DNA of 64,000 nt from Prevotella nigrescens (GTDB lineage Bacteria; Bacteroidota; Bacteroidia; Bacteroidales; Bacteroidaceae): positions 64,501 through 128,500 of the forward strand of contig NZ_CP133465.1 in assembly GCF_031191185.1 (NCBI RefSeq). The letters run 5' to 3'. Position 1 is the stretch's first letter. Each line of letters starts with the position of its first letter. The translations under genes and the position numbers were made by a program. The notes below the pieces were generated by a model. That model was not told the origin of the DNA. It was given only the letters and a program-made list of their open reading frames with translations, and ran no database searches. Positions 4,706 to 24,214 of this stretch are shown in pieces.

Positions 4706-4848
4706 TTTTAATTTTAAAATTTTACTACTAAAAAACGTTTTTAATGCTTGCCCGTCGGATTCACTAACCACGCAGCCTGGCCAAAAGCAGCGCTATTAAC
4801 ACACAACGTGCTGAGGGCTCTAAGTTCACCCTCGGAATAATCGGTCTG
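4706..4848 (-). ncRNA. candidate L13 mRNA leader (autoregulatory)
   Basis: About 140 transcribed bases lie between the promoter and the rplM start. They contain a GC-rich section with short complementary runs (gaggg and ccctc around 4812-4835 on the plus strand) and a gccaggctgcgtgg-type stretch nearer the start. An L13-Bacteroidia ribosomal-protein leader is a known class in this phylum, placed exactly here. The match to that class is inferred from position and length, not from an alignment. Confidence 0.5.
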
Positions 4849-8181: not shown

Positions 8182-9519
8182 CTAAGCCTTTTGTTTGTCT
8201 TTAATAATAGTAACCGATAGTGCACCAGCAGCAAGGGCAACACCAGCCACAATCATCATGTTGCTCTGCACAGAACCTACAAGGTGCAAGATAGTCCCGC
8301 CAAGAGCAGCTGCAATAATCTGTGGAATACAGATGGTTCCGTTGAACAAACCAAGGTAGGCTCCCATGTGTCCGTAGCCTTCCAGCGCATTCGTTACGAA
8401 GGTAAAAGGCATAGCCAGAATGGCAGCCCAGGCGCAACCAATAAGCAAGAACGGGAAGAACATAATGTGTTGGTCGTAAACAAACGAAGTCATAACAAAT
8501 CCAACGCCACCCAACAGGAGCGAGAAGCCATACGCAAACTTACGGTTCTTGAACATAGGCAGCACCACAGCCCAGAGCACCGAGCCTATTGCCTGCACAG
8601 CAAACAATATTCCTACCCAGTCGCCGGCTTTCTGATAGTTTAGTGTTGCCGTGGCATTGGCTGCGTCCATGTCCACACCAAAGCAGTTGGCTGCTACTGT
8701 TCCAGGAGTGTAGGTCCACATAAACAAGAAAGCAAACCAGGAAAAGAACTGTGCCAGACCAACTTTCCAGAAAGTGGCAGGAGCATTTTTCAACAAATGT
8801 ATCCAGTTGCTTTTCGATTCTTTTTCGTTTGTATTCAGGTTGTGATACTCTGCATATTCCTTCGGAGGCATCTCTTTCACCTTTAGCGTAGTGTAGAGAA
8901 CGCAAAGAATAAGGATTGCAGCTCCGGCGTAGAAAGAGTAAATCACCGAGTCGGGAATAACTCCCTTAGGTGCTTCGATAGATATTCCGATGGCAGTAAG
9001 CAAGTACGGAAACACATAGCCAACCAGCGAACCTGCATTGCAAAGAAAACTTTGAATAGAGTAAGCCAGGCCTTTTTGCTTTTCGTTTACCTCGTCGCCC
9101 ACAAGCATTTTAAAGGGTTGCATCGCCATGTTGATGCTCGTATCGAGGAACATAAGCGAGATTAAGCCGAACGTCATGGCTGTAGACACAGCCATACCGA
9201 ACGAACCTGCATTGGGTAAAAGGCACATAACGATGACCGCAACAAGAGCACCTATAAATAAATAAGGTATACGGCGACCAAAGCGAGTCCATGTTCTGTC
9301 AGACAAAGTTCCTACAACCGGTTGCACGATAATACCCATCAGCGGTGGTAAAATCCAGAAATAGCTCAGGCTGTGTGGGTCTGCGCCTAATGTAGCGAAT
9401 ATGCGTGAGATGTTGGCACTCTGCAAAGAGTAGGCTATTTGCACGCCAAAAAAACCGAAACTGAGGTTCCATAGTTGCCAGAAGCTCTTGTCTGGGCGAG
9501 TCTTTAATTCATTATTCAT
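8182..9519 (-). CDS. GPH/SLC45-type MFS sugar transporter, probable maltose/maltodextrin
   Basis: A 445-residue hydrophobic protein of the MFS superfamily. The N-terminal KSFWQLWNLSFGFFGVQIAYSL and GTLSDRTWTRFGRRIPY (the MFS loop 2-3 signature D-R-x-x-x-R-x-G-R-R) are typical of the GPH:cation symporter/SLC45-like group that Bacteroidetes use to bring maltose and short maltodextrins across the inner membrane. It lies 52 bp downstream of the lacI-type regulator on the same strand, next to a starch-binding system, which supports an alpha-glucan sugar as substrate. The exact sugar and coupling ion are inferred. Confidence 0.85.
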   Translation of the reverse strand: MNNELKTRPDKSFWQLWNLSFGFFGVQIAYSLQSANISRIFATLGADPHSLSYFWILPPLMGIIVQPVVGTLSDRTWTRFGRRIPYLFIGALVAVIVMCLLPNAGSFGMAVSTAMTFGLISLMFLDTSINMAMQPFKMLVGDEVNEKQKGLAYSIQSFLCNAGSLVGYVFPYLLTAIGISIEAPKGVIPDSVIYSFYAGAAILILCVLYTTLKVKEMPPKEYAEYHNLNTNEKESKSNWIHLLKNAPATFWKVGLAQFFSWFAFLFMWTYTPGTVAANCFGVDMDAANATATLNYQKAGDWVGILFAVQAIGSVLWAVVLPMFKNRKFAYGFSLLLGGVGFVMTSFVYDQHIMFFPFLLIGCAWAAILAMPFTFVTNALEGYGHMGAYLGLFNGTICIPQIIAAALGGTILHLVGSVQSNMMIVAGVALAAGALSVTIIKDKQKA

Positions 9520-9571: not shown

Positions 9572-10600
9572 TTATCGTGTTGTTCCTCTAATAATAAGTC
9601 TTGTACGCACAATGCGCTTCTCTACCGAATTGAAAGGCAATGCTCCTTCCACCTTATCAATCAATATACTCGCAGCCTCTTCCCCCACGCGCAAGCCGCG
9701 CTGTTCTACGGTTGTCAGCATCGGATCGCACGATACGGCACGTATACCATTGGTGAAGCCACAGATAGATATGTCTTCAGGAATGCGATAGCCCAATCGT
9801 TTGCACGAATAAAGCACGCCAAGGGCAGTCTCATCGTTCACTGCAAAAAAAGCATCGGGTGGATTTTGAAGAATCAGGAGGTCGGGAGTAATCGATTCAG
9901 CATCGCTACGGTTATCGCACATCCGTATTAATTGCTCGTCGGGCTGTATGCCGTGCTTCAGCAAAGCATCGCGATAACCGTTGTAACGGTTCTTTCCTAT
10001 TTCCAAGTTCATCGACAATCCGTAATACGCAATGCGTTTACAGCCCGTATTAATAAGGTAGTTGACGGCAGAGAATGCTCCCATGTAATCGTCGATGACC
10101 ACACGGCTGGCATTCACGCCAATACTTACACGGTCGTAGAAAACAAGTGGAACATGCTGGTCTACAAGGAATTGGAAATGGTCGAACTTGGTTGTGCTCT
10201 TGGCTTGCGACACAATCACACCGCAAACCTTATTTTCGTAAAACGATTTACATATCTTTACTTCGCGCTCGTAGTTCTCGTTGCTTTGTGCAACCATTAG
10301 CTGATAACCACGCGCAGAAGCCTCTTCTTCAATCCCTGCTAATATAGACGAAAAATAGAAGTGCGTAAATTGTGGTACTATGACACCGATAACCTTCAAC
10401 GGTTGCACTTTACTTTTGCGCAAAGCCTCGGCTATAAGGTTCGGAGTAAAGTTCTGTTCACGTGCATAACGCTTTATTTCTTCCCGTTTCTCTGCCGAAA
10501 TACGAGGGCTATCCTTTAGTGCACGCGATACAGTAGCAACAGAAACACCCAATTCCCGTGCTATATCTTTCATCGTTACATTAGCCCTTTTCATTATCAT
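9572..10600 (-). CDS. LacI-family transcriptional regulator of the starch locus
   Basis: 342 residues. The N-terminal helix-turn-helix VTMKDIARELGVSVATVSRA is at about residues 8-27, followed by a hinge helix and a periplasmic-binding-like sensor domain (VIGVIVPQFTHFYFSSILAGIEE in two parts; GVIVSQAKS; GICGFTNG-like segments). Starts at 10600 or 10594 are both possible. It is divergent from susC and probably forms an operon with the transporter. The shared region contains a perfect LacI-type palindrome, and a second copy precedes the amylase gene, so this protein is the obvious regulator of all three units. Its inducer is likely a maltose-type sugar (inference). Confidence 0.92.
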   Translation of the reverse strand: MIMKRANVTMKDIARELGVSVATVSRALKDSPRISAEKREEIKRYAREQNFTPNLIAEALRKSKVQPLKVIGVIVPQFTHFYFSSILAGIEEEASARGYQLMVAQSNENYEREVKICKSFYENKVCGVIVSQAKSTTKFDHFQFLVDQHVPLVFYDRVSIGVNASRVVIDDYMGAFSAVNYLINTGCKRIAYYGLSMNLEIGKNRYNGYRDALLKHGIQPDEQLIRMCDNRSDAESITPDLLILQNPPDAFFAVNDETALGVLYSCKRLGYRIPEDISICGFTNGIRAVSCDPMLTTVEQRGLRVGEEAASILIDKVEGALPFNSVEKRIVRTRLIIRGTTR

Positions 10601-10638: not shown

Positions 10639-10646
10639 CAAAAATA
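10639..10646 (-). promoter_or_regulatory. -7 box of the lacI-transporter unit
   Basis: Minus-strand TATTTTTG matches TAnnTTTG. No TTG lies at the usual 19-21 bp upstream. Its 5' edge is 62.5 bp from the centre of the operator at 10702-10715. Confidence 0.5.
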
Positions 10647-10701
10647 CATATTTTTACATTGTTGCTTGATACAAGTCAAGAAATTATTTCCATATTAACA
10701 A

Positions 10702-10715
10702 TGCAAACGTTTGCA
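10702..10715. promoter_or_regulatory. LacI-type operator between lacI and susC
   Basis: A perfect 14-bp palindrome, tgcaaacgtttgca, with the central CG typical of LacI-family operators. It lies midway between two divergent -7 boxes (62.5 bp to the lacI side, 61.5 bp to the susC side). The same 12-bp core recurs before the amylase gene. Confidence 0.88.
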
Positions 10716-10769
10716 CATTTTAATTTATGTTTTTAACGACCAAAAAGTGCTAATACGAAATTAACAGAT

Positions 10770-10777
10770 TATCTTTG
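10770..10777 (+). promoter_or_regulatory. -7 box of susC operon
   Basis: TATCTTTG followed by CAG matches the consensus. There is no TTG 19-21 bp upstream, which suggests dependence on an activator. The start codon is about 117 bp downstream, leaving a leader of roughly 110 bases. Confidence 0.65.
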
Positions 10778-10893
10778 CAGTACTAATTTCTATATAAAAG
10801 GTAGAAAAGATGCCGTATTGGGGTATTACAAAGATAATTATTCAAGTTACATCAAGGATAAAATTTACTCAATATTAATACTTTAACAACAAA

Positions 10894-13800
10894 ATGATGA
10901 AGCAGGTAAAATGCAAAATCTCTGTCAGGATACTGACGCTTATCGTCGGTCTATTCCTGTCTGTCAGTGCCTTTGCACAATCAACAATCAAAGGTATTGT
11001 GAAAGATTCTTCCGGCGAACCAATCATTAGCGCATCGGTTCTTATCACAGGAACCCACGACGGTGTGCAGACTGACCTCGACGGAAACTTTGAATTGAAT
11101 GTAGCACCAGGCACTCAATTAACCATTTCCTACATCGGTTACATTAAGCAACAAGTAGCTGCAAAGAACGGTATGGTAGTTGTTCTGCAGCCAGAAGATG
11201 CACAACAGATGCAAGAAGTAGTTGTCATCGGTTACGGTTCGGTGAAGAAGAGCGACCTTACAGGCTCGGTTCTCGCAATGAAACCAGACTCAAAGAACAA
11301 AGGTCTCGTTGTAAACGCACAGGACATGATGCAAGGCAAGATGGCTGGTGTGAATGTAACGGGCGAGGGCGGTATCCCTGGCGGCGGTGCAAAAATTCGT
11401 ATTCGTGGTGGTTCTTCGCTGAACGCATCTAACGATCCGCTTATCGTTATTGATGGTGTGGCATTGGATAACACGGGTATAAAAGGTATGTCGAACCCAC
11501 TCTCTATGGTAAACCCACAAGACATTGAAAGCTTCAACGTCTTGAAAGATGCTTCTGCAACAGCTATTTACGGCTCTCGTGGTTCTAACGGTGTTATCAT
11601 CATCACCACAAAGAAAGGACATGTCAATCAACCGCTCGCAGTTTCATACGCCGGTAGCGTAACTGCAAGCGTCAAGAGAAAGACCATTGACGTGATGAAT
11701 GGCGACGAGTATAGAAAGTTTATTACTGATATGTTTGGTGCAGGAAGCAAGCAAGTGGCTGCACTTGGCAAGGCTAACACCAATTGGCAGAATGAAATTT
11801 ATCGCACGGCATGGGCACAAGACCACAACATAACCATTACCGGTTCTGTTGGCGACAAGGCTAATTCTATGCCTTTCCGTGTTTCTGCAGGTTACACAAA
11901 CAATCAAGGTATTGTGAAAACCTCAAGCTTTGAACGTTACACAGCAGCCGTAAACCTAAGCCCATCACTCTTGAACAATCACCTGAACATGAATTTGAAT
12001 GTGAAAGGAATGTTTGCAAAGAACCGTTTTGCTGATGGTGCTGCAATCGGTGCTGCCGTATCTTTCGACCCAACTCAAAGTGTTTACGACTATACATCGG
12101 CTGATGCCGCTAACTTTGGCAACTACTTTGAATGGCGTGGCATAGGTCTCGCCCCGAGCGAAGACCCAACATGGCCAACTACTTTGAATACTTTGGCAAC
12201 AAAGAACCCTGTAGCTATATTGAATTTGAAGAACGACCGCTCTCGCAGCCGCGACGTAATTGCAAATGCAGAATTTGACTATAAAGTCCACGGATTTGAA
12301 GATTTGCGCCTGCATGTTACTGCCGGTGCCGACATTGCACAAGGACAGCAGGACACAGACATTGCACCTACTTCTCCATTAGCATCTTATTATGGGTACA
12401 ATGGCTGGAGCAGACAGTTGAAGCGCAATCTCACTTTCAACACTTACGCACAGTATTATCACGACTTTAAGGACGCTGCAAAGAACCACTTCGATATTAT
12501 GGCAGGTTACGAGTGGCAACACTTCTGGAAAAAAGACAAGAGCCGCGCTATACAATACTATCCTTCTACCAACTCAAAGGCAGGACAGGTTTATAAAGAC
12601 AGTGGTAAAGACTACAACGGCGATGGCATTTTGGAAGATTTTGTATATCCTACAGAAAACTATCTTGTATCATTCTTCGGTCGTTCAAACTGGAGTTTGA
12701 TGGACCGTTACTATGTTACTGCAACCTTCCGTGCAGATGGTGCATCACGTTTCAAAAAGCATTGGGCTTACTTCCCTTCATTCGCCTTTGCTTGGAAAGT
12801 AAAGGACGAAAACAAATTCCGCGACATTAAATGGTTGAGCGACTTGAAACTCCGCTTAGGTTGGGGTATGACAGGTCAGCAGGAAGGTATCGGCGACTAC
12901 AACTACTTCGACATTTATCAGACAGGTAGTGGTTCAAACAACTTTTATCCAATAACAGACGACGGGACTGTAGTTCGTCCACAAGCTGTAAATAAAGATT
13001 TAACTTGGGAAACAACTACAACTTACAACGTTGGTCTCGACTGGGGTATCCTCAACCAACGCCTCACCGGTAGCGTTGACTGGTACTACCGTAAGACCAC
13101 AGACCTCTTGAATAACAGTGTAACTGTTTCTGCCGGTTCCAACTTCCGCAACCAAGTTCCTTCTAATATCGGTTCGTTAAAGAATACCGGTGTTGAAGTT
13201 GCCTTGCGCTGGAGAGCTATTGAGACCAAGGACTGGTATTGGACTATTGACTATAACTTCACATATAACAAGAACGAAATTACCGACCTTACAGGTGGTA
13301 AGGATCCTAACTTTGTTGTTGCAACAGGAGGAATATCAGCAGGTACTGGCGGCAATGCACAGGCACACGCTGTAGGGCACCCAGCTTCTTCTTTCTACGT
13401 TTATCAGCAAATTTATGATAAGAATGGCAAACCAATCGAAGGAGCAGTTGTAGACAGAAACGGTGATGGACAAATTACCCCTGCCGACAAGTACTTCTAC
13501 AAGAGTCCGATGGCTCCTGTTACAATGGGACTTGCTTCTCGTTTAGAGTATAAGAACTGGGACTTCGGTTTCTCTCTCCGTGCAAATATCGGCAACTACG
13601 TGTTCAACGATTTGATGGCTGGACAAGCTAATGTTTCTCCTGCTGCTGTATGGGCATCATCTGAATTCTTGTCAAACCGTCCAATAGAATCAATTAAAGA
13701 CAATTGGCAAACAGGTAATGATAAAACTGTTCTTTCAGACCGTTGGGTACAGAATGCCTCATTCTTGAAACTCGATAACATTACATTGGGTTATAGCTTT

Positions 13801-13980
13801 GCCGACCTCTTCAAGACTGGTGGCTGGCATGGTTTGAGCGGACGCGTGTATGGTACTGCTTCTAACATTCTCACCCTTACTAAATATAAAGGTATAGACC
13901 CTGAAGTATTCAGCGGTATCGACAAAAACCCCTACCCTCGCCCAATGTCATTCATTGTAGGTCTTAATCTAAACTTCTAA
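10894..13980 (+). CDS. susC: SusC/RagA-family TonB-linked outer-membrane transporter
   Basis: 1,028 residues. Signal peptide ends near SAFAQ (about residue 29). A carboxypeptidase-D-regulatory-like domain follows (STIKGIVKDSSGEPIISASV, about 31-110), then the plug beginning VVVIGYGSVKKSDLTGSV, the SusC signature DASATAIYGSRGSNGV near residues 219-234, and a 22-stranded barrel ending in LNLNF. SusC proteins import oligosaccharides with TonB energy and pair with a SusD lid. The adjacent susD, susE, susF-like genes and amylase point to maltodextrins. First gene of the operon; susD starts 23 bp after its stop. Confidence 0.96.
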   Translation: MMKQVKCKISVRILTLIVGLFLSVSAFAQSTIKGIVKDSSGEPIISASVLITGTHDGVQTDLDGNFELNVAPGTQLTISYIGYIKQQVAAKNGMVVVLQPEDAQQMQEVVVIGYGSVKKSDLTGSVLAMKPDSKNKGLVVNAQDMMQGKMAGVNVTGEGGIPGGGAKIRIRGGSSLNASNDPLIVIDGVALDNTGIKGMSNPLSMVNPQDIESFNVLKDASATAIYGSRGSNGVIIITTKKGHVNQPLAVSYAGSVTASVKRKTIDVMNGDEYRKFITDMFGAGSKQVAALGKANTNWQNEIYRTAWAQDHNITITGSVGDKANSMPFRVSAGYTNNQGIVKTSSFERYTAAVNLSPSLLNNHLNMNLNVKGMFAKNRFADGAAIGAAVSFDPTQSVYDYTSADAANFGNYFEWRGIGLAPSEDPTWPTTLNTLATKNPVAILNLKNDRSRSRDVIANAEFDYKVHGFEDLRLHVTAGADIAQGQQDTDIAPTSPLASYYGYNGWSRQLKRNLTFNTYAQYYHDFKDAAKNHFDIMAGYEWQHFWKKDKSRAIQYYPSTNSKAGQVYKDSGKDYNGDGILEDFVYPTENYLVSFFGRSNWSLMDRYYVTATFRADGASRFKKHWAYFPSFAFAWKVKDENKFRDIKWLSDLKLRLGWGMTGQQEGIGDYNYFDIYQTGSGSNNFYPITDDGTVVRPQAVNKDLTWETTTTYNVGLDWGILNQRLTGSVDWYYRKTTDLLNNSVTVSAGSNFRNQVPSNIGSLKNTGVEVALRWRAIETKDWYWTIDYNFTYNKNEITDLTGGKDPNFVVATGGISAGTGGNAQAHAVGHPASSFYVYQQIYDKNGKPIEGAVVDRNGDGQITPADKYFYKSPMAPVTMGLASRLEYKNWDFGFSLRANIGNYVFNDLMAGQANVSPAAVWASSEFLSNRPIESIKDNWQTGNDKTVLSDRWVQNASFLKLDNITLGYSFADLFKTGGWHGLSGRVYGTASNILTLTKYKGIDPEVFSGIDKNPYPRPMSFIVGLNLNF

Positions 13981-14003
13981 TTTATCACAAAAAGTCAATA
14001 ACA

Positions 14004-15647
14004 ATGAAACGATATATTAAGAAATTAGCTCCTGTAGCAGCATTGCTGCTTACACTGAGCATCACTTCTTGTGTAAAGGACTTGGACGTTACGCCAATCG
14101 ATCCAAACCTTCAAACAAAGATTAATCCAAACCATTTGTTCAACAAATGCTATGCAAACTTCGCATTGGCAGGGAACAAAGGTCCTGATGACCCTAACGG
14201 GGATTGTGATATTGATGGTCTTGACGGAGGTACAACAGGTTTCATCAGACAGTTATTCAATTCTAACGAACTCACAACTGACGAAGCCATCTGCAACTGG
14301 ACACAAGACGAAGGTGTCACGGATTTCAACTCTAATAGCTATGGTAGCTCTAACCCTATGCTTAAAGGTTTTTACTATCGCCTCTACTTCGGTGTAACCA
14401 TCTGCAACCAATACATCAACAACTTTGGCGATGTGGACAAGCAGAAGACGGCAGAGGTGCGCTTTATCCGTGCACTCGACTACTACTTCTTAATGGACGC
14501 ATTCGGCAATGTTCCTTTCACAGAAGTAATATCAGCCAAATCAGCTCCACAATATTCACGCAAGCAAGTATACGACTATATTGAAAAGGAACTCTTGGCT
14601 ATAGAACCAGACTTAATGGAACCAAAGGCTAAAACATCTTCCGACCCAAATTATGGTCGTGTAGACAAGGCTGCAGTATGGATGTTGCTCTCTCGCCTCT
14701 ACTTGAATGCAGAGGTTTATACTGGTACGGCACAATGGCAGAAGGCTGCCGACTATGCCAAGCGAGTAATCAATTCACCTTATCACCTCTACACTGGGGC
14801 TACAGTAAATGGCTGGACTGCTTACCAGCAGCTCTTCATGGGTGATAATGGCGAAAACGGTGCATCTGTTGAAGCTGTCTTCCCTGTTCTCCAAGATGGC
14901 AAGCGCACTGCAGCTTACGGTGGTACAGTATTCTTGATTAATGCTTGCTACGACAAGACCGCGACTGTAAATAGCAATGGTACTGCTGGCTGCAACCTCT
15001 ACGAGAATGCAAACTGGGCAGGTGTTCGTGCCCGCAAGGATCTTATCGACAAATTCTTCCCCAACAACAATGCACCTTCGGTTACCGGAGCTGTCATGCC
15101 GCATGAAGCGGGCGACGACCGCGCATTGTTCGACGGTGTAGGCAGAACGATTACACAGAACACTTCGGCAGACCTTTCTGTATTTACAAAGGGCTTCGCA
15201 GTAGTTAAGTACAACAACTTCTACTCAACCGGGGCAAGCGCAAAAGACCTCCGTTACGCCGACACTGACTTCTTCATGTTCCGTGTTGCAGAGGCTTATC
15301 TTACCTATGCAGAAGCTACTGCTCGCTTGAATGGTGGTCAGACTACCACGGAAGGTACAGACCTTATCAACAAACTCCACATTCGTGCTCATGCGGCACC
15401 AAGAACAACGGGTGCTTATACGCTCAACGACATTCTCAACGAGTGGTGCAAAGAGTTCTACTTTGAAGGTCGCCGCCGTGTAGACTTGATTCGTTTCAAC
15501 AAGTTTGGCGGTAACGTAAACTACAACTGGGCTTGGAAAGGTGGTGAACGCAACGGACGCAACTTTGCTGCAATACGCAACGTCTTCGCTATTCCAAACA
15601 GCGATATGATTGTAAACCATAACTTGAAACAGAACCCAGGCTATTAA
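14004..15647 (+). CDS. susD: SusD/RagB-family starch-binding surface lipoprotein
   Basis: 547 residues with a lipobox ending at Cys23 (LSITSC). The family features are visible: the N-terminal region LDVTPIDPNLQTK, helical TPR-like segments (VRFIRALDYYFLMDAFGNVP, VDKAAVWMLLSRLYLNAEVY) and the C-terminal EWCKEFYFEGRRRVDLIRF. SusD caps the SusC barrel at the cell surface and delivers glycans to it. Sequence similarity in overall plan is to the starch SusD type, in keeping with the neighbouring amylase. A hairpin follows in the gap before susE. Confidence 0.95.
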   Translation: MKRYIKKLAPVAALLLTLSITSCVKDLDVTPIDPNLQTKINPNHLFNKCYANFALAGNKGPDDPNGDCDIDGLDGGTTGFIRQLFNSNELTTDEAICNWTQDEGVTDFNSNSYGSSNPMLKGFYYRLYFGVTICNQYINNFGDVDKQKTAEVRFIRALDYYFLMDAFGNVPFTEVISAKSAPQYSRKQVYDYIEKELLAIEPDLMEPKAKTSSDPNYGRVDKAAVWMLLSRLYLNAEVYTGTAQWQKAADYAKRVINSPYHLYTGATVNGWTAYQQLFMGDNGENGASVEAVFPVLQDGKRTAAYGGTVFLINACYDKTATVNSNGTAGCNLYENANWAGVRARKDLIDKFFPNNNAPSVTGAVMPHEAGDDRALFDGVGRTITQNTSADLSVFTKGFAVVKYNNFYSTGASAKDLRYADTDFFMFRVAEAYLTYAEATARLNGGQTTTEGTDLINKLHIRAHAAPRTTGAYTLNDILNEWCKEFYFEGRRRVDLIRFNKFGGNVNYNWAWKGGERNGRNFAAIRNVFAIPNSDMIVNHNLKQNPGY

Positions 15648-15655
15648 GATTATAC

Positions 15656-15681
15656 AAGTTGAGGGGGCGACTCCTCAACTT
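15656..15681 (+). terminator. susD-susE intergenic hairpin (attenuator-like)
   Basis: Arms aagttgagg (15656-15664) and cctcaactt (15673-15681) are perfect complements around an 8-base loop. There is only a short T run after it, so it may act as partial terminator or as an RNA-stabilising end that raises susCD over susEF. Confidence 0.55.
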
Positions 15682-15704
15682 TCACAACTCAAAAGATAAG
15701 AATT

Positions 15705-16889
15705 ATGACAAAGATATTAAAGTCAGCATTGCTGCTTCTCTGCGCTGTTTGTTTCCTTACAGCGTGCAGCGATGACAACGACGAGAACCCAGTGGTAAAG
15801 ACGCCAACCACTTTCCACCTGAATACGCCTGCACTTGCGGCTAATGGTATTTACGACTTGGCAAATTCTAAAACCATAGAGCTTACTTGCTCGCAACCAG
15901 ACTATGGCTATCCTGCCGTAACAAAATATACGGTAGAGGTTGCAACCAGCGCAGACATGTCTGACGCAAGGACTATGGCAACAACCTTTACAACAGCCAA
16001 GATGGAAGTAGACGCTGCCGAACTGGCAAGCTTGCTTACCGAAATGTATGTTGCAAAAGGCATGAGCGAACATCAGTTCCCTCTCACAGCTCCTGTCTAT
16101 ATTCGTGCAAAGGCTGTCCAGACTACTGCCTACGGACAGGAAATCGAAGGTACGTCAATTGCATCTAACGTTATTACTTTAAACAAGGTGTACTTGCTCT
16201 TCTCGCTTCCTCCTGTGAAGACACCGGAGAAGCTATATCTTGTCGGCAACTTCAACAAGTGGTCGTGGGACAATGCGCTGGAGATGACACCTGTCAACGG
16301 CTCACCTAACATCTTCTGGCATCTTGTTTACATTGATGGACAGGGCAACAGTGCAGGTGTGAAGTTCAACAGCGACAAGGCATGGAACGGCAAAGAGGCT
16401 GGTTTCGAAAAGATTACGATTAACCCTGCAAGCGATAATGCTGCCGATATTACCAATGCCAATGGCAACATTGGCTCTTCCAAGGCAGGCTGGTACCTGA
16501 TGATTGTAGAGTGCACCGTAGTGGGTCGCGACATCAAGTACAACGTAACCTTCAACAAGCCTAACGTTTACTTGCAAGGTGCATGTACCGCATCAGGTGG
16601 CTGGGACCTTATCCCGGACAACCTGTTCTCTGTTCCTGCAACAGCCGACGGCGAGTTTGTTTCTCCAGCCATAGGCAATGCCGTGTCTGGTGGTCCTTCA
16701 GACGGCGACCCGGGTGTACGTATCTGCGTGAAGATACCTGGCATGGACTGGTGGAGGTCCGAGTTCATCGTCTACGACAAGAAGATTGCTTACCGCGGAA
16801 CAGGTGGCGACCAGACACCACGTGTTGCAGGTGCAGTAGGTCAGAAGGTTTACTTGAACTTCACAAAGGAAACCGGCGAAATAAAATAA
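15705..16889 (+). CDS. susE: SusE-like starch-binding outer-membrane lipoprotein
   Basis: 394 residues with a lipobox ending at Cys21 (FLTAC) followed by SDDND, an acidic stretch like the Bacteroides surface-export signal. An N-terminal SusE-type domain (about 30-140) is followed by two carbohydrate-binding beta-sandwich modules with exposed aromatic residues (LYLVGNFNKWSWDNALEM; VYLQGACTASGGWDL). SusE binds starch at the cell surface and is not catalytic. It lies in the same operon between susD and the susF-like gene. Confidence 0.88.
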   Translation: MTKILKSALLLLCAVCFLTACSDDNDENPVVKTPTTFHLNTPALAANGIYDLANSKTIELTCSQPDYGYPAVTKYTVEVATSADMSDARTMATTFTTAKMEVDAAELASLLTEMYVAKGMSEHQFPLTAPVYIRAKAVQTTAYGQEIEGTSIASNVITLNKVYLLFSLPPVKTPEKLYLVGNFNKWSWDNALEMTPVNGSPNIFWHLVYIDGQGNSAGVKFNSDKAWNGKEAGFEKITINPASDNAADITNANGNIGSSKAGWYLMIVECTVVGRDIKYNVTFNKPNVYLQGACTASGGWDLIPDNLFSVPATADGEFVSPAIGNAVSGGPSDGDPGVRICVKIPGMDWWRSEFIVYDKKIAYRGTGGDQTPRVAGAVGQKVYLNFTKETGEIK

Positions 16890-16914
16890 CAACTTATTAT
16901 CACAGAAAACAGTC

Positions 16915-17949
16915 ATGAAGAAATTATCATTATATATCACACTCGCACTCGTAAGCCTCGTTTTCGGGGCTTGCAGCGACGAGTACGAACCTTGGGGCAA
17001 TCCTCAGGCATACCCCGAGGAAGGTGCTGTTACTATTCCCGGCATGAAAGCAAATGCCGTAGCAACGCAAGACCTGGGCACTGCAGGCGAACAGGTTTCG
17101 CTGTTCACCCTCACTGCGGCTACTCTTCCTGAAGGCTACACCTTGCGGAACGCCCGCATGGAACTCCGCCCGGTGATGCTCGACGGTGCAACGCCTACCA
17201 CCATCAGCACCACGATTGACGGCAAGGCAAGCACGGCAGAAGTACAGGCAATGATTGAGAAGTACTATGGCAAGCGCGTGGAAGCACGCAATTTCTCGGC
17301 GCACGTATATGTCAATGCCGTAAAGGGCAGCCAGGCTGCGCTCATCGATGCCGGCACCATCGCTGTTACGGTGATACCAAAGGCCCCGGCCCTCACCGAA
17401 TACCTCTACATGGCGGGCGACGCAAACTCGTGGAACCACTCGGACATTCTCCACAGCCCGGCATTCGACGGCAAGTATCTTGGCTACATGTACCTCACGC
17501 AGAACGGATTCAAGTTCTGCACGCAGCCAAACTGGAACGGCACGAACTACGGCAAGGACTTCAGCACGGCAAGCGATGCCGCCAACATCACAATGACCGA
17601 ACCTGATGGCTTCTACAAGGTTGAAGTAAACTTGCTGACACTTTCCTACACCCTCACGCCGATTACAAGAATAGGCATCATCGGCGACGCCACGGGCAGC
17701 TGGGACAACGACATTGCCATGACCTACGACCCGACGGCTCACGGCTGGAGCGTGCAACACGTAACGCTTGTGAACGGCGAAATGAAGTTCCGTGCCAACA
17801 GCGAATGGAAGATTAGCTGGGGCGGCACAGACCTTGACCACCTCACATCGAACAACGGTGCCAACATCAAGGTTACGGCAGGCAAGTACACCATCAAGCT
17901 GAAACCATCGTACGACGGCAACACAAAGGCTGAACTCATAAAAGAGTAA
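16915..17949 (+). CDS. SusE/SusF-like surface lipoprotein with two glycan-binding modules
   Basis: 344 residues with lipobox FGAC (Cys20) and the acidic export-like stretch SDEYE after it. An N-terminal SusE-like domain is followed by two modules, EYLYMAGDANSWNHSDIL and IGIIGDATGSWDNDIAM, both of SusE/SusF starch-binding type. It is shorter than the B. thetaiotaomicron SusF, with one module fewer, so I leave the symbol blank. Codon third positions are visibly richer in C and G than in the flanking core genes. Last gene of the operon, followed by a terminator. Confidence 0.82.
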   Translation: MKKLSLYITLALVSLVFGACSDEYEPWGNPQAYPEEGAVTIPGMKANAVATQDLGTAGEQVSLFTLTAATLPEGYTLRNARMELRPVMLDGATPTTISTTIDGKASTAEVQAMIEKYYGKRVEARNFSAHVYVNAVKGSQAALIDAGTIAVTVIPKAPALTEYLYMAGDANSWNHSDILHSPAFDGKYLGYMYLTQNGFKFCTQPNWNGTNYGKDFSTASDAANITMTEPDGFYKVEVNLLTLSYTLTPITRIGIIGDATGSWDNDIAMTYDPTAHGWSVQHVTLVNGEMKFRANSEWKISWGGTDLDHLTSNNGANIKVTAGKYTIKLKPSYDGNTKAELIKE

Positions 17950-17988
17950 AGCCCACTTAAATAAACACTCTCAAGTTTATATCTCCAA

Positions 17989-18029
17989 AGAGGGGGCGTC
18001 AGAACACACAGTTCTGGCTGCCCCCTTTT
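17989..18029 (+). terminator. terminator of susCDEF operon
   Basis: Stem agggggc..cagaac pairing with gttctg..gcccccttt, loop acaca, followed by tttcctttt. It lies 40 bp after the last stop codon. Confidence 0.88.
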
Positions 18030-18083
18030 CCTTTTGCAGCATTTTCTCTTGTATCCTCACGCCTGCCGTCCATGGTATATAAC

Positions 18084-18152
18084 ACCTGCAGTTGTAGATA
18101 CACAACACCTGCAATCGCAGCTACACAGTACCTGCAATCAACGGTATTACGT
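18084..18152. repeat. 23-bp degenerate tandem repeat, three units
   Basis: Three consecutive units at 18084-18106, 18107-18129 and 18130-18152 each start with acctgca and drift after that; a further acctgcaagca occurs near 18271. The region is between the sus terminator and the amylase promoter and has no gene. Confidence 0.6.
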
Positions 18153-18162
18153 ACCTATTGCC

Positions 18163-18234
18163 AATACCCTTGTTAGGGTATCAGTCAATACCCTTGTTAG
18201 GGTGTTCGTCAATACCCTTGTTAGGGTATCAATC
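18163..18234. repeat. 24-bp tandem repeat of hairpin units, three copies
   Basis: Three end-to-end 24-bp copies at 18163-18186, 18187-18210 and 18211-18234. Each contains the identical 14-base hairpin accct-tgtt-agggt; the last 6-7 bases vary. No spacers, so this is not a CRISPR array. Confidence 0.85.
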
Positions 18235-18333
18235 ACTCTCCCGTAAGACCAATCATAAGCGATACTATATACCTGCAAGCAATGGTATGTCGTACCTCGG
18301 GTGCCCCCTCTCTGTCTGCTCAAAAGCAAGGCT

Positions 18334-18345
18334 GCAAACGTTTGC
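18334..18345. promoter_or_regulatory. second LacI-type operator, upstream of amylase
   Basis: Perfect 12-bp palindrome gcaaacgtttgc, the same core as the operator between lacI and susC. Its centre lies 61.5 bp upstream of the amylase -7 box, identical to the susC arrangement. Confidence 0.85.
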
Positions 18346-18400
18346 GCCCGCATTAACACTTATTCTATATCAAGCTGGCACGGGAAAAGGAAATAAGTTG

Positions 18401-18408
18401 TACATTTG
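18401..18408 (+). promoter_or_regulatory. -7 box of amylase gene
   Basis: TACATTTG followed by CG, 43 bp before the start codon. As at susC, no TTG is present at the normal upstream distance. Confidence 0.65.
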
Positions 18409-18450: not shown

Positions 18451-20469
18451 ATGAAACGAACCTCAACTCTGCTTGCAGTCTTGTGCCTCGCTGCAACAAT
18501 GCTCGCACAAGGCTGGAAAGCCAACTATGGCGGCGTAATGCTGCAAGGCTTCTACTGGGACTCTTACCAGGATACGAAGTGGACAAACCTCGAGGCGCAG
18601 GCAAAAGAACTCGCCGAATACTTCGACCTTGTATGGCTGCCGCAAAGCGCACAGGCACGCAATACGCCATCGATGGGCTACGACGACTACTATTGGTTCA
18701 GCAACTACAACAGCGCGTTCGGCACAGAGGCAGAACTCCTGAGCCTCATCGGCACATTCAGAGCCAGCGGCATCAAGACCATAGCCGACGTTGTCATCAA
18801 CCACCGTGCAACCACCGCAGGCTGGTTCGACTTCCCAACCGAAACCTACAACGGAGTAACGTACACCATGACATCGAAAGACGTTGCCAAGAACGACGAC
18901 GGCGGCAAGGCATTGACCGAAGCACAGAAAGAGGGCGTGCAGCTCAGCGACTTCATCGACTCGGGCGAAGACTGGGACGGCATGCGCGACCTCGACCACA
19001 ACAGTGCGAACGTACAGACCACGGTGAAGGCATACCTGCAGATGCTGAAAGACAAATTCGGCTATGCAGGCTTCCGTTACGACATGGTAAAGGGCTACGG
19101 AGGCAAGTTCACCGCACTCTACAACAATGCCTCACAACCAGAGTTCTCTGTCGGCGAATATTGGGACGGCAACATAGACAAAGTGAAGGCGTGGATTGAA
19201 AGCACCAAGTCGGACAATGTTCCTACAAGTGCAGCTTTCGACTTCCCTGTCCGTTACACCGTCCGCGATGCCGTGAACAACGGCAACTGGGCTGCACTCG
19301 ACGGTGTCGGCTTGGCAAAAGACCCCAACTATGCACGCTATGCCGTTACCTTCGTGGAGAACCACGACACCGAAGACCGCGGCGGCAACAGCCACCAAGA
19401 CCCCATAAAGAAAGACACACTGGCAGCAAACGCCTACATTCTCGCCATGCCGGGAACGCCATGCATCTTCCTGAAGCACTATCAGGCATACAAAAGCGAC
19501 ATCAAGAACATGATTAGCGTACGCAAGCTGATGGGCATCAACAACGAAAGCAAAGCCGTAAAATACAGCAACGGAACCGATTACTACGCATTTACCACCA
19601 CCGGAACGAACGGCGAAATGCTTACCGTGCTCGGTCCTGCAAAGAGTTTCTCCAGCACAAACCGTTGGATAAAGCTCACCGGCGGCTACCACTGGGCCTA
19701 CTACGTGGAGAAGAGCAAAGCCAACTTCGTATGGGCAAGCCTTGCAAGCGGCACCTATGATGGCGAGCAACACGCAACACTTACAGCCATCAGCAACGAC
19801 GCGAATGCGCAAATCGTGTACACCACCGACGGAAGCGAACCGACAGCAGGCAGTGCAAAGGCAGCCAACGGACAGCAGATAACCATTCCAGTGGGCACAA
19901 CCGTACTGAAAGCAGGATTGCTCGTAGGCGGCGTTGTCAAGAACGTCATCGTCCGCAACTACAACATCATCGACTTCAAGCCTTACAACATCAAGGTGTA
20001 TGTAAATGCCGACGAGGCTGATGCAGCCTGGGCAAGTGCGAAGATGGCAAGCACCCACCCTTCCATCAACTTCTGGATATGGGGCGGAACACACAAGACC
20101 GTGAAGGGTTCGTGGCCAGGCGACGCCGTAACAACAACCGAAACGGCAAACGGCAAGAAATGGCTTGTGAAGGAATTTACCATTACAAACTCTAACGACA
20201 TCGTGAACTTTGTATTCAGCGTAGGCACAGGTTCGCCACAGACGGTCGATATTCAGAACATAAAGGCAACCACCTTTATCAACATATCAAGCGAGAAAGA
20301 AGGTGGAAAGAACAAAGTAAACGTTGTTTCTACGGGCATCGACAACGTCGTTGCAGAACACAAGGGCAACAACGCCCCTTGCTACTACACACTTTCAGGA
20401 CAGCGCATAGCCAAACCAACCCAGCGTGGCATATATATCCACAACGGAAAGAAAGTACTGGTGAAGTAG
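18451..20469 (+). CDS. secreted GH13 alpha-amylase with starch-binding C-terminal modules
   Basis: 672 residues; signal peptide ending near MLAQ (residue 20). The GH13 barrel shows all four conserved regions: DVVINH (113-118), GFRYDMVKGY with nucleophile Asp211, GEYWDG with acid/base Glu236, and FVENHD with Asp306. After about residue 435 comes a chitobiase-C-like module (IVYTTDGSEPTAGSA), then a CBM-like beta domain (INFWIWGGTHKT, GSWPGDA) and a short tail YYTLSGQRIAKP...GIYIHNGKKVLVK that resembles type IX sorting tails of Prevotella. It cleaves alpha-1,4 bonds in starch outside the inner membrane, feeding SusCD. Own promoter and LacI operator. Confidence 0.94.
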   Translation: MKRTSTLLAVLCLAATMLAQGWKANYGGVMLQGFYWDSYQDTKWTNLEAQAKELAEYFDLVWLPQSAQARNTPSMGYDDYYWFSNYNSAFGTEAELLSLIGTFRASGIKTIADVVINHRATTAGWFDFPTETYNGVTYTMTSKDVAKNDDGGKALTEAQKEGVQLSDFIDSGEDWDGMRDLDHNSANVQTTVKAYLQMLKDKFGYAGFRYDMVKGYGGKFTALYNNASQPEFSVGEYWDGNIDKVKAWIESTKSDNVPTSAAFDFPVRYTVRDAVNNGNWAALDGVGLAKDPNYARYAVTFVENHDTEDRGGNSHQDPIKKDTLAANAYILAMPGTPCIFLKHYQAYKSDIKNMISVRKLMGINNESKAVKYSNGTDYYAFTTTGTNGEMLTVLGPAKSFSSTNRWIKLTGGYHWAYYVEKSKANFVWASLASGTYDGEQHATLTAISNDANAQIVYTTDGSEPTAGSAKAANGQQITIPVGTTVLKAGLLVGGVVKNVIVRNYNIIDFKPYNIKVYVNADEADAAWASAKMASTHPSINFWIWGGTHKTVKGSWPGDAVTTTETANGKKWLVKEFTITNSNDIVNFVFSVGTGSPQTVDIQNIKATTFINISSEKEGGKNKVNVVSTGIDNVVAEHKGNNAPCYYTLSGQRIAKPTQRGIYIHNGKKVLVK

Positions 20470-24142: not shown

Positions 24143-24214
24143 GGTCTCTTCGTCTATCGGCTAGGACACAAGATTTTCATTCTTGTAAGAGGGGTTCGAT
24201 TCCCCTAGAGACTA
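24143..24214 (+). tRNA. tRNA-Glu (anticodon TTC)
   Basis: A 72-base cloverleaf: acceptor ggtctct with agagact (first pair G-T, as usual for tRNA-Glu in this group), anticodon stem caaga/tcttg with loop ttttcat giving anticodon TTC, and T arm ggggttcgattcccc. CCA is not encoded. It is followed 22 bp later by rpsT and probably cut from a common transcript. Confidence 0.97.

Follow-up and report, generated by a model that had tools for sequence, protein, structure and literature searches.

How is starch use switched on where the sus genes lie beside a gene for a LacI-type protein? This question is raised by a locus of Prevotella nigrescens within a stretch of 64,000 nucleotides (NCBI RefSeq assembly GCF_031191185.1, contig NZ_CP133465.1, positions 64,501 to 128,500 of the forward strand; the whole stretch is referred to as the window). 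Here, a gene for a LacI-family regulator is transcribed divergently from a susC-like gene, and one and the same palindrome, GCAAACGTTTGC, precedes both of them as well as an alpha-amylase gene further downstream. Our analysis indicates that this protein is very likely an activator of a maltose/starch regulon, predicted to bind near position -73 and to drive two divergent promoters, one of them its own.

One operator at a fixed distance from three promoters

The following features define the arrangement:

9572..10600, reverse strand: lacI, encoding a LacI-family regulator of 342 amino acids (Pfam LacI PF00356 and Peripla_BP_3 PF13377)
10639..10646, reverse strand: -7 box of lacI, TATTTTTG, first base at 10646, 62.5 bp from the centre of operator 1
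10703..10714, no strand: operator 1, GCAAACGTTTGC, centre 10708.5, between lacI and susC and common to both promoters
10770..10777, forward strand: -7 box of susC, TATCTTTG, 61.5 bp from the centre of operator 1
10894..13980, forward strand: gene for a susC-like TonB-dependent receptor (TIGR04056, 743 bits, cut-off 368)
18334..18345, no strand: operator 2, GCAAACGTTTGC, centre 18339.5, before the amylase gene
18401..18408, forward strand: -7 box of the amylase gene, TACATTTG, 61.5 bp from the centre of operator 2
18451..20469, forward strand: alpha-amylase gene with its own upstream region, possibly encoding a CBM26-like module (PF00128; PF16738 with 23.5 bits, below the cut-off of 28.1)

The initial annotation of this DNA had named palindromes centred at 10708.5 and 18339.5, distances of 61.5 bp to the boxes of susC and the amylase gene and of 62.5 bp to that of lacI, and the absence of a TTG element 19-21 bp upstream of the -7 boxes. 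All of this proved accurate. Exact copies of GCAAACGTTTGC occur at these two centres and nowhere else in the window (10703-10714 and 18334-18345), the distances are correct to the base, and none of the three window promoters (lacI, susC and amylase) carries TTG at a spacer of 19-21 bp. For TTG at other spacers the values are 0 in the amylase promoter, and 25 and 30 in the lacI promoter. With 89 -7 boxes on both strands of the window, the chance of finding one in a given slot of three bases is about 0.002 per operator side. The operator alone is unremarkable, as four occurrences with at most two mismatches were found in the window where 4.26 are expected. It is the combination of operator and spacing that exceeds chance.

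Conservation of the spacing in relatives

Orthologues of the regulator (E ≤ 1.3e-104; paralogues start at E 6.6e-69) were found in 76 of 399 genomes of the family, the genome under study included. Stretches of up to 20 kb around lacI from all 75 other genomes make up a first set of loci. A second set stems from a scan of genomes of named species and consists of the best 80 of 489 loci, from Prevotella, Segatella, Hoylesella and uncultured Prevotellaceae, reduced to 78 by removal of two duplicates of the first set; the closest locus among these best 80 is that of Prevotella aurantiaca (91%). Around each strict operator, defined as GCAAWCGWTTGC, boxes of the form TAnnTTTG pointing away from it were counted in bins of 10 bp up to 250 bp from the operator centre. 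The 107 strict operators of the first set have 145 boxes in the 60-70 bp bin, compared with 57 in the other 24 bins together, where the maximum is 16 (120-130 bp). For the 114 strict operators of the second set, the corresponding numbers are 175 and 18. At the resolution of single bases, the boxes of the first set lie at 60.5 (2 boxes), 61.5 (70), 62.5 (57), 63.5 (10), 64.5 (4) and 65.5 bp (2), i.e., 127 of the 145 are found at 61.5 or 62.5 bp, while those of the second set all fall within 61.5-63.5 bp (60 at 61.5, 103 at 62.5 and 12 at 63.5). The spacing, whose comparison in relatives the initial annotation had proposed as a check, is fixed and not variable in both sets. Note that the organisms are related, so that locus counts are not independent events and are inflated by relatedness: one pair within each set is at least 97% identical over the lacI region, and one locus of the second set (L231) is 96% identical to a locus of the first set over this region.

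A palindromic operator with central CG and at most one mismatch stands beside lacI in 71 of 75 loci of the first set and 76 of 78 of the second. Among the 71, an exact lacI-side box at 60.5-65.5 bp is present in 66, and a divergent susC gene lies within 1.1 kb in 52, of which 48 have an exact susC-side box. Three of the remaining four have a box with one mismatch at 61.5 or 62.5 bp; in the fourth (L110), the susC operator is located beyond the stretch scanned there and has its box at 61.5 bp. In the second set, the lacI box is found in 76 of 76 and the susC box in 75 of 75 cases. A relative of the transporter gene is present near lacI in all 75 stretches of the first set, in one of them (L107) in opposite orientation. 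As a separate observation, a further TAnnTTTG occurs in 15 loci among L077-L103. It faces lacI at 123.5-127.5 bp from the operator, roughly another promoter distance beyond the first, and is perhaps a second lacI promoter.

The arrangement of the genes varies between loci. L057, L076, L077, L079 and L097 carry two operators upstream of lacI, one per promoter: the lacI box and the divergent box each have an operator of their own at 61.5-62.5 bp. In L082, L083, L085, L087, L094, L098 and L100, susC is several kilobases away from lacI and has its own operator at the same distance. The layout of the region changes; the distance from operator to promoter does not. The initial annotation had put forward one operator shared by two divergent promoters, a reading that the analysis supports; in the loci just named, separate operators occur where the promoters lie apart. 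Operators away from lacI are followed by an exact box at this spacing in 32 of 39 cases in the first set and 27 of 40 in the second. Sixteen of the 20 misses have a -7 box with one mismatch at 61.5-63.5 bp, and 12 of these 16 precede a gene whose protein start resembles that of the GH77 protein as judged by eye.

Further sites in the P. nigrescens genome

The 2.68-Mb genome contains four exact operators. The third, outside the window (G000:C2:24893), is located 61.5 bp before a TACCTTTG box, and genes for a GH77 4-alpha-glucanotransferase with a CBM20 module and then for a GH97 glycosidase follow downstream. The fourth (G000:C2:1128836, L112) is considered further below; a box lies 25.5 bp away on the opposite side of this operator. 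When the genome was scanned for the looser 10-bp operator core CAAWCGWTTG with a box at 60.5-64.5 bp, six pairs emerged, as opposed to none for the reversed pattern. They comprise the three window promoters, the GH77-GH97 operon, C1:131782 and C2:1499234 (L170 and L171). Thus, the three promoters listed by the initial annotation all follow the rule, but they are not the full set, which has at least one more member in the GH77-GH97 operon. C1:131782 and C2:1499234 were excluded from the regulon, because no starch gene adjoins them. One of the two is followed after about 470 bp by a transglycosylase-like gene and, downstream of that, by a gene for a UvrD/PcrA-type helicase, both functions as judged by eye. 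The other comes after a rho-like gene, and no gene of at least 150 amino acids follows soon on the same strand.

Absence of the -33 element

The consensus for housekeeping promoters in Bacteroides, as given in the available part of PMC7366714, consists of TAnnTTTG at -7 and TTTG at -33. We compared 150 operator promoters of the first set, i.e., those with a strict or close-variant operator 60-66 bp upstream, with 216 control promoters from the same set, i.e., TAnnTTTG boxes outside open reading frames of at least 200 amino acids, without an operator upstream and located 15-300 bp before an open reading frame of at least 200 amino acids. TTG at a spacer of 19-21 bp was present in 8 of the 150 operator promoters versus 56 of the 216 controls, with the peaks in the controls at spacers of 19 (23 promoters) and 20 bp (28 promoters). 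In windows shifted by 20 bp, the numbers were 8 of 150 and 10 of 216, respectively, which places the operator promoters at background. The promoters linked to the operator carry the housekeeping -7 sequence TAnnTTTG and lack the -33 element (TTTG, or TTG at 19-21 bp). The control set probably contains boxes that are not promoters, so the true difference would be larger. Since the search for boxes relied on the Bacteroides consensus, promoters of other types would be missed.

Co-occurrence with the regulator gene and starch genes

In the same 399 genomes, the pattern GCAAWCGWTTGC-N54-57-TAnnTTTG is present in 75 and its reversed form in one. The spaced operator occurs in 71 of the 76 genomes with an orthologue of the regulator and in 4 of the 323 without one (Fisher p 2.9e-67, with genomes treated as independent, though they are related). 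To this we add the genes behind 20 distal sites, hand-picked among the matches listed. Eight of these sites precede GH97 genes, which are one target in related genomes (three of the eight by Pfam, the others by length and protein start), three precede GH77 genes (one of them by Pfam), two amylase genes and one susC, such that 14 of the 20 fit one pathway. In one relative (L290:232-1194), a gene of the beta-lactamase family according to Pfam lies behind a spaced operator, which is probably a chance site.

Related LacI groups

Sister paralogues with 35-41% identity are represented by 23 LacI loci among the matches listed (L147-L169). Here, the best 16-bp palindrome was determined for each lacI upstream region, ties included. 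These sites read like ACGCAAANNTTTGCGT or ACGTAAACCRTTACGT, and their distance to the divergent-side box is 51.5 bp in nine and 52.5 bp in four loci, i.e., 13 of 23 (no other single distance on that side occurs in more than three loci), a figure that rests on best-palindrome picking in one set of loci. L168 and L169 have 51.5 bp with a weaker site. The gene behind the sister sites encodes 310 amino acids and appears aldo/keto-reductase-like by eye; L167 differs. These data would point to a second LacI group with a fixed spacing on the target side, about one helical turn nearer and without the two-sided design.

A search of the phylum gave at least 27 distant relatives; one of the rows scanned, L119, is itself an orthologue. 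None of the 27 has an exact box at 60-66 bp from a near-operator, and L125 has an exact box at 52.5 bp. Boxes with one mismatch in distant relatives may represent no more than a search over 45 positions yields. In a family that we call Flavobacteriaceae-type by inference, 22 loci were read and six keep the order transporter-lacI-susC. In four of the six (L181, L182, L191 and L192, all with the operator CGMAAACGTTTTCG), a box with one mismatch lies at exactly 52.5 bp; in the other two it does not. Given that 13 of the 23 sister loci (51.5-52.5 bp) and four of the six Flavobacteriaceae-type loci (52.5 bp) have the site about one helical turn nearer, the geometry described here may exemplify something that LacI proteins do more widely in Bacteroidota.

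The regulator and its predicted mode of action

By its domains, the regulator is a member of the LacI/GalR family (PF00356 with 52.8 bits, cut-off 27; PF13377 with 104.1 bits, cut-off 26.5), with the N-terminal LacI helix-turn-helix as well as the C-terminal periplasmic-binding-protein-like domain. Among proteins of solved structure, CcpA chains are closest to it in sequence; at 146 bits versus a cut-off of 442, the protein misses the NCBIfam model for ccpA orthologues (TIGR01481). In Pfam it appears as a LacI-type protein, and a domain make-up like that of SusR or a hybrid two-component system (HTCS) was not found. A membrane domain was not found either, in a search confined to Pfam and without prediction of transmembrane segments.

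The fixed, helix-phased spacing on both sides, the missing -33 element, the presence of an operator at each promoter and the co-occurrence with lacI together lead us to predict an activator and not a repressor. The suggestion of the initial annotation that an activator works on one face of the helix gains support from these findings. As with Class I-type activators, the site is positioned upstream at constant helical phase, and the promoters are weak in the upstream core element. We propose that the protein would bind GCAAWCGWTTGC as a dimer, with the centre of the site about 61.5-62.5 bp before the -7 box. If the box sits at the place given by the Bacteroides consensus, the operator centre would be at about -73 from the transcription start, and no core element would be covered. 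Once bound, the regulator would recruit RNA polymerase with its housekeeping sigma factor to promoters with a -7 but without a -33 element. The contact would probably involve the C-terminal domain of the alpha subunit, positioned over the AT-rich stretch that separates operator and promoter. In this stretch, the A+T fraction of the block 15-20 bp past the operator is 0.79-0.98 in every group of at least 20 promoters; other spacer blocks are equally AT-rich in some promoter groups. Since both operator and dimer are symmetric, one site could serve two divergent promoters, and the regulator's own gene along with the transporter gene behind it would also be activated. Expression of lacI would thus be positively autoregulated. 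The targets suggest that the activity of the protein is set by a maltose-type sugar inside the cell.

Weighing of alternatives

Several observations weigh against activation from a fixed distance. The fourth exact operator in the genome has no box at the rule spacing. In the first set, four of 75 loci (L052, L054, L058 and L104) have no operator with at most one mismatch near lacI, and L058 also carries a divergent susC. The same applies to two of 78 loci in the second set: the stretch for L206 stops 73 bases away from lacI; in L202, one half of the site is retained, and boxes lie 61.5 bp (susC side) and 64.5 bp (lacI side) from it. Five genomes (G023, G049, G291, G307 and G354) contain the orthologue but no spaced operator, and four (G018, G065, G083 and G207, 72-84% complete) contain a spaced operator but no orthologue. 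Six of the 20 distal sites are at genes unrelated to starch or have no clear gene. In the sister group, TTG is present at -33 in four of the 13 promoters, and the lacI side has no common distance. Finally, operators in L213, L218, L226 and L249 are at most 36 bp from, or just inside, a gene start and have no box at the rule spacing, a position that would suit repression; in three of the four, the protein start is GH77-like by eye.

Repression is the mode for which the LacI family is best known, and the four relatives with operators next to or inside the gene start would fit a classical LacI-type repressor that is bound upstream, acts by looping or by excluding another factor and is relieved by sugar. 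On the other hand, no promoter element is covered by an operator at about -73. A repressor could also do without a fixed spacing on two sides and without a site at each promoter of genes that lie apart, and the loss of the -33 element would be left unexplained. We regard repression as very unlikely. It is also conceivable that the site is used while another or additional regulator, a CRP-like protein or a second activator bound in the spacer, brings about activation, with the LacI protein as helper or anti-activator. The susC promoters indeed have a conserved A-rich spacer motif in common, and a CRP-like global regulon for sugars has been predicted in Bacteroides (PMC3878776). Yet this motif is absent from the lacI and distal promoters, all promoter groups share only the operator, AT-rich DNA and the -7 box, and the spaced operator tracks the lacI gene genome by genome, which makes such a regulator very unlikely. 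A search for a second-activator motif common to the spacers ended negatively, as each promoter group has a spacer consensus of its own and the groups have only AT-richness in common. That the constant spacing merely reflects shared ancestry of one promoter region might be argued from the fact that most sites belong to the orthologous lacI-susC region. This hardly deserves credence, as the spacer consensus differs among lacI, divergent and distal promoters, and operators are single or paired following the gene layout while the spacing is kept.

Relation to known systems

The papers cited in this section were available in part, and statements on their content apply to these parts. CcpA of Bacillus activates genes whose cre boxes lie upstream of -35, and this activation depends on the face of the helix (PMC3463425). 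It resembles the protein studied here in belonging to the LacI/GalR family, in being the nearest solved relative and in the upstream position and helix-face dependence of activation. Unlike the latter, CcpA is a global catabolite regulator that acts mostly as a repressor and with a corepressor, whereas here a single activating distance is found at nearly every site and most targets belong to one pathway. For PckR of Rhizobiales, the sign of regulation was predicted from the position of the site, and the protein was predicted to be dual (PMC4052901). PckR and Cra/FruR of enteric bacteria are likewise LacI-family proteins that activate some genes, but both are dual regulators of central carbon metabolism in Proteobacteria, for which a fixed two-sided geometry is not described in the parts available. 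As the cases of CcpA and PckR demonstrate, activation by LacI-family proteins as such is already known.

Within Bacteroides, SusR activates the sus genes on maltose or starch (PMC3878776, PMC11633381). SusR and HTCS regulators sense in the periplasm, in contrast to the LacI-type protein encountered here. The accessible text of PMC10316084 distinguishes three kinds of control for polysaccharide loci, SusR, HTCS and extracytoplasmic function (ECF) systems, and LacI is not among them there. In B. thetaiotaomicron, LacI regulators are reported only for uronates and related sugars as far as the text of PMC3878776 reaches. The sus loci of B. fragilis and B. uniformis share with the P. nigrescens locus a LacI-type regulator plus an MFS transporter and the absence of SusR. 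These regulators were predicted without further work (PMC11633381), and the available text specifies neither an operator nor a promoter geometry nor whether regulation is positive or negative; they probably belong to the same family as the protein described here. A review mentions MalR beside SusR in B. thetaiotaomicron (PMC12632263), and this protein may be prior art for the present system. Our literature search, with most subscription journals outside its reach, returned no description of this operator, nor of any LacI-family activator in Bacteroidota. The apparent novelty lies in a Bacteroidota LacI protein that is dedicated to one pathway and has the same activating geometry at almost all of its sites. 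On balance, we consider it probable that a further kind of polysaccharide-locus control exists beside SusR, HTCS and ECF, in which a LacI-type activator responds to an intracellular sugar, uses a two-sided site on one helix face, drives its own synthesis and replaces the -33 element.

Annotators easily read genes of this kind as those for repressors. If activation applies, predictions of starch use, knock-out designs and regulon models for Prevotella and for Bacteroides with LacI-type regulators would be inverted. The geometry would provide a rule for finding activator promoters in Bacteroidota from sequence alone, a testable case for activation of the Bacteroides-type RNA polymerase and a compact two-way inducible promoter.

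Other features of the window

The remaining genes of the locus are as follows:

8182..9519, reverse strand: gene for an MFS/GPH-type sugar transporter, 3' of lacI and on the same strand (Pfam MFS_1, MFS_2)
14004..15647, forward strand: gene for a susD-like starch-binding lipoprotein (PF07980; NF033071 SusD with 503 bits, below the cut-off of 725)
15705..16889, forward strand: gene for a susE/susF-like lipoprotein (PF16411, PF14292)
16915..17949, forward strand: gene for a second susE/susF-like lipoprotein (PF16411)

Two short tandem arrays are located just upstream of the amylase operator, one at 18162-18235 with 3.1 copies of a partly palindromic 24-bp unit (CCCTTGTTAGGG) and the other at 18081-18139 with 2.6 copies of a 23-bp unit. 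In bases 1-30000 of the window, Rfam reported an L13-Bacteroidia ribosomal leader at 4758-4833 on the reverse strand and a tRNA gene at 24143-24214 on the forward strand.

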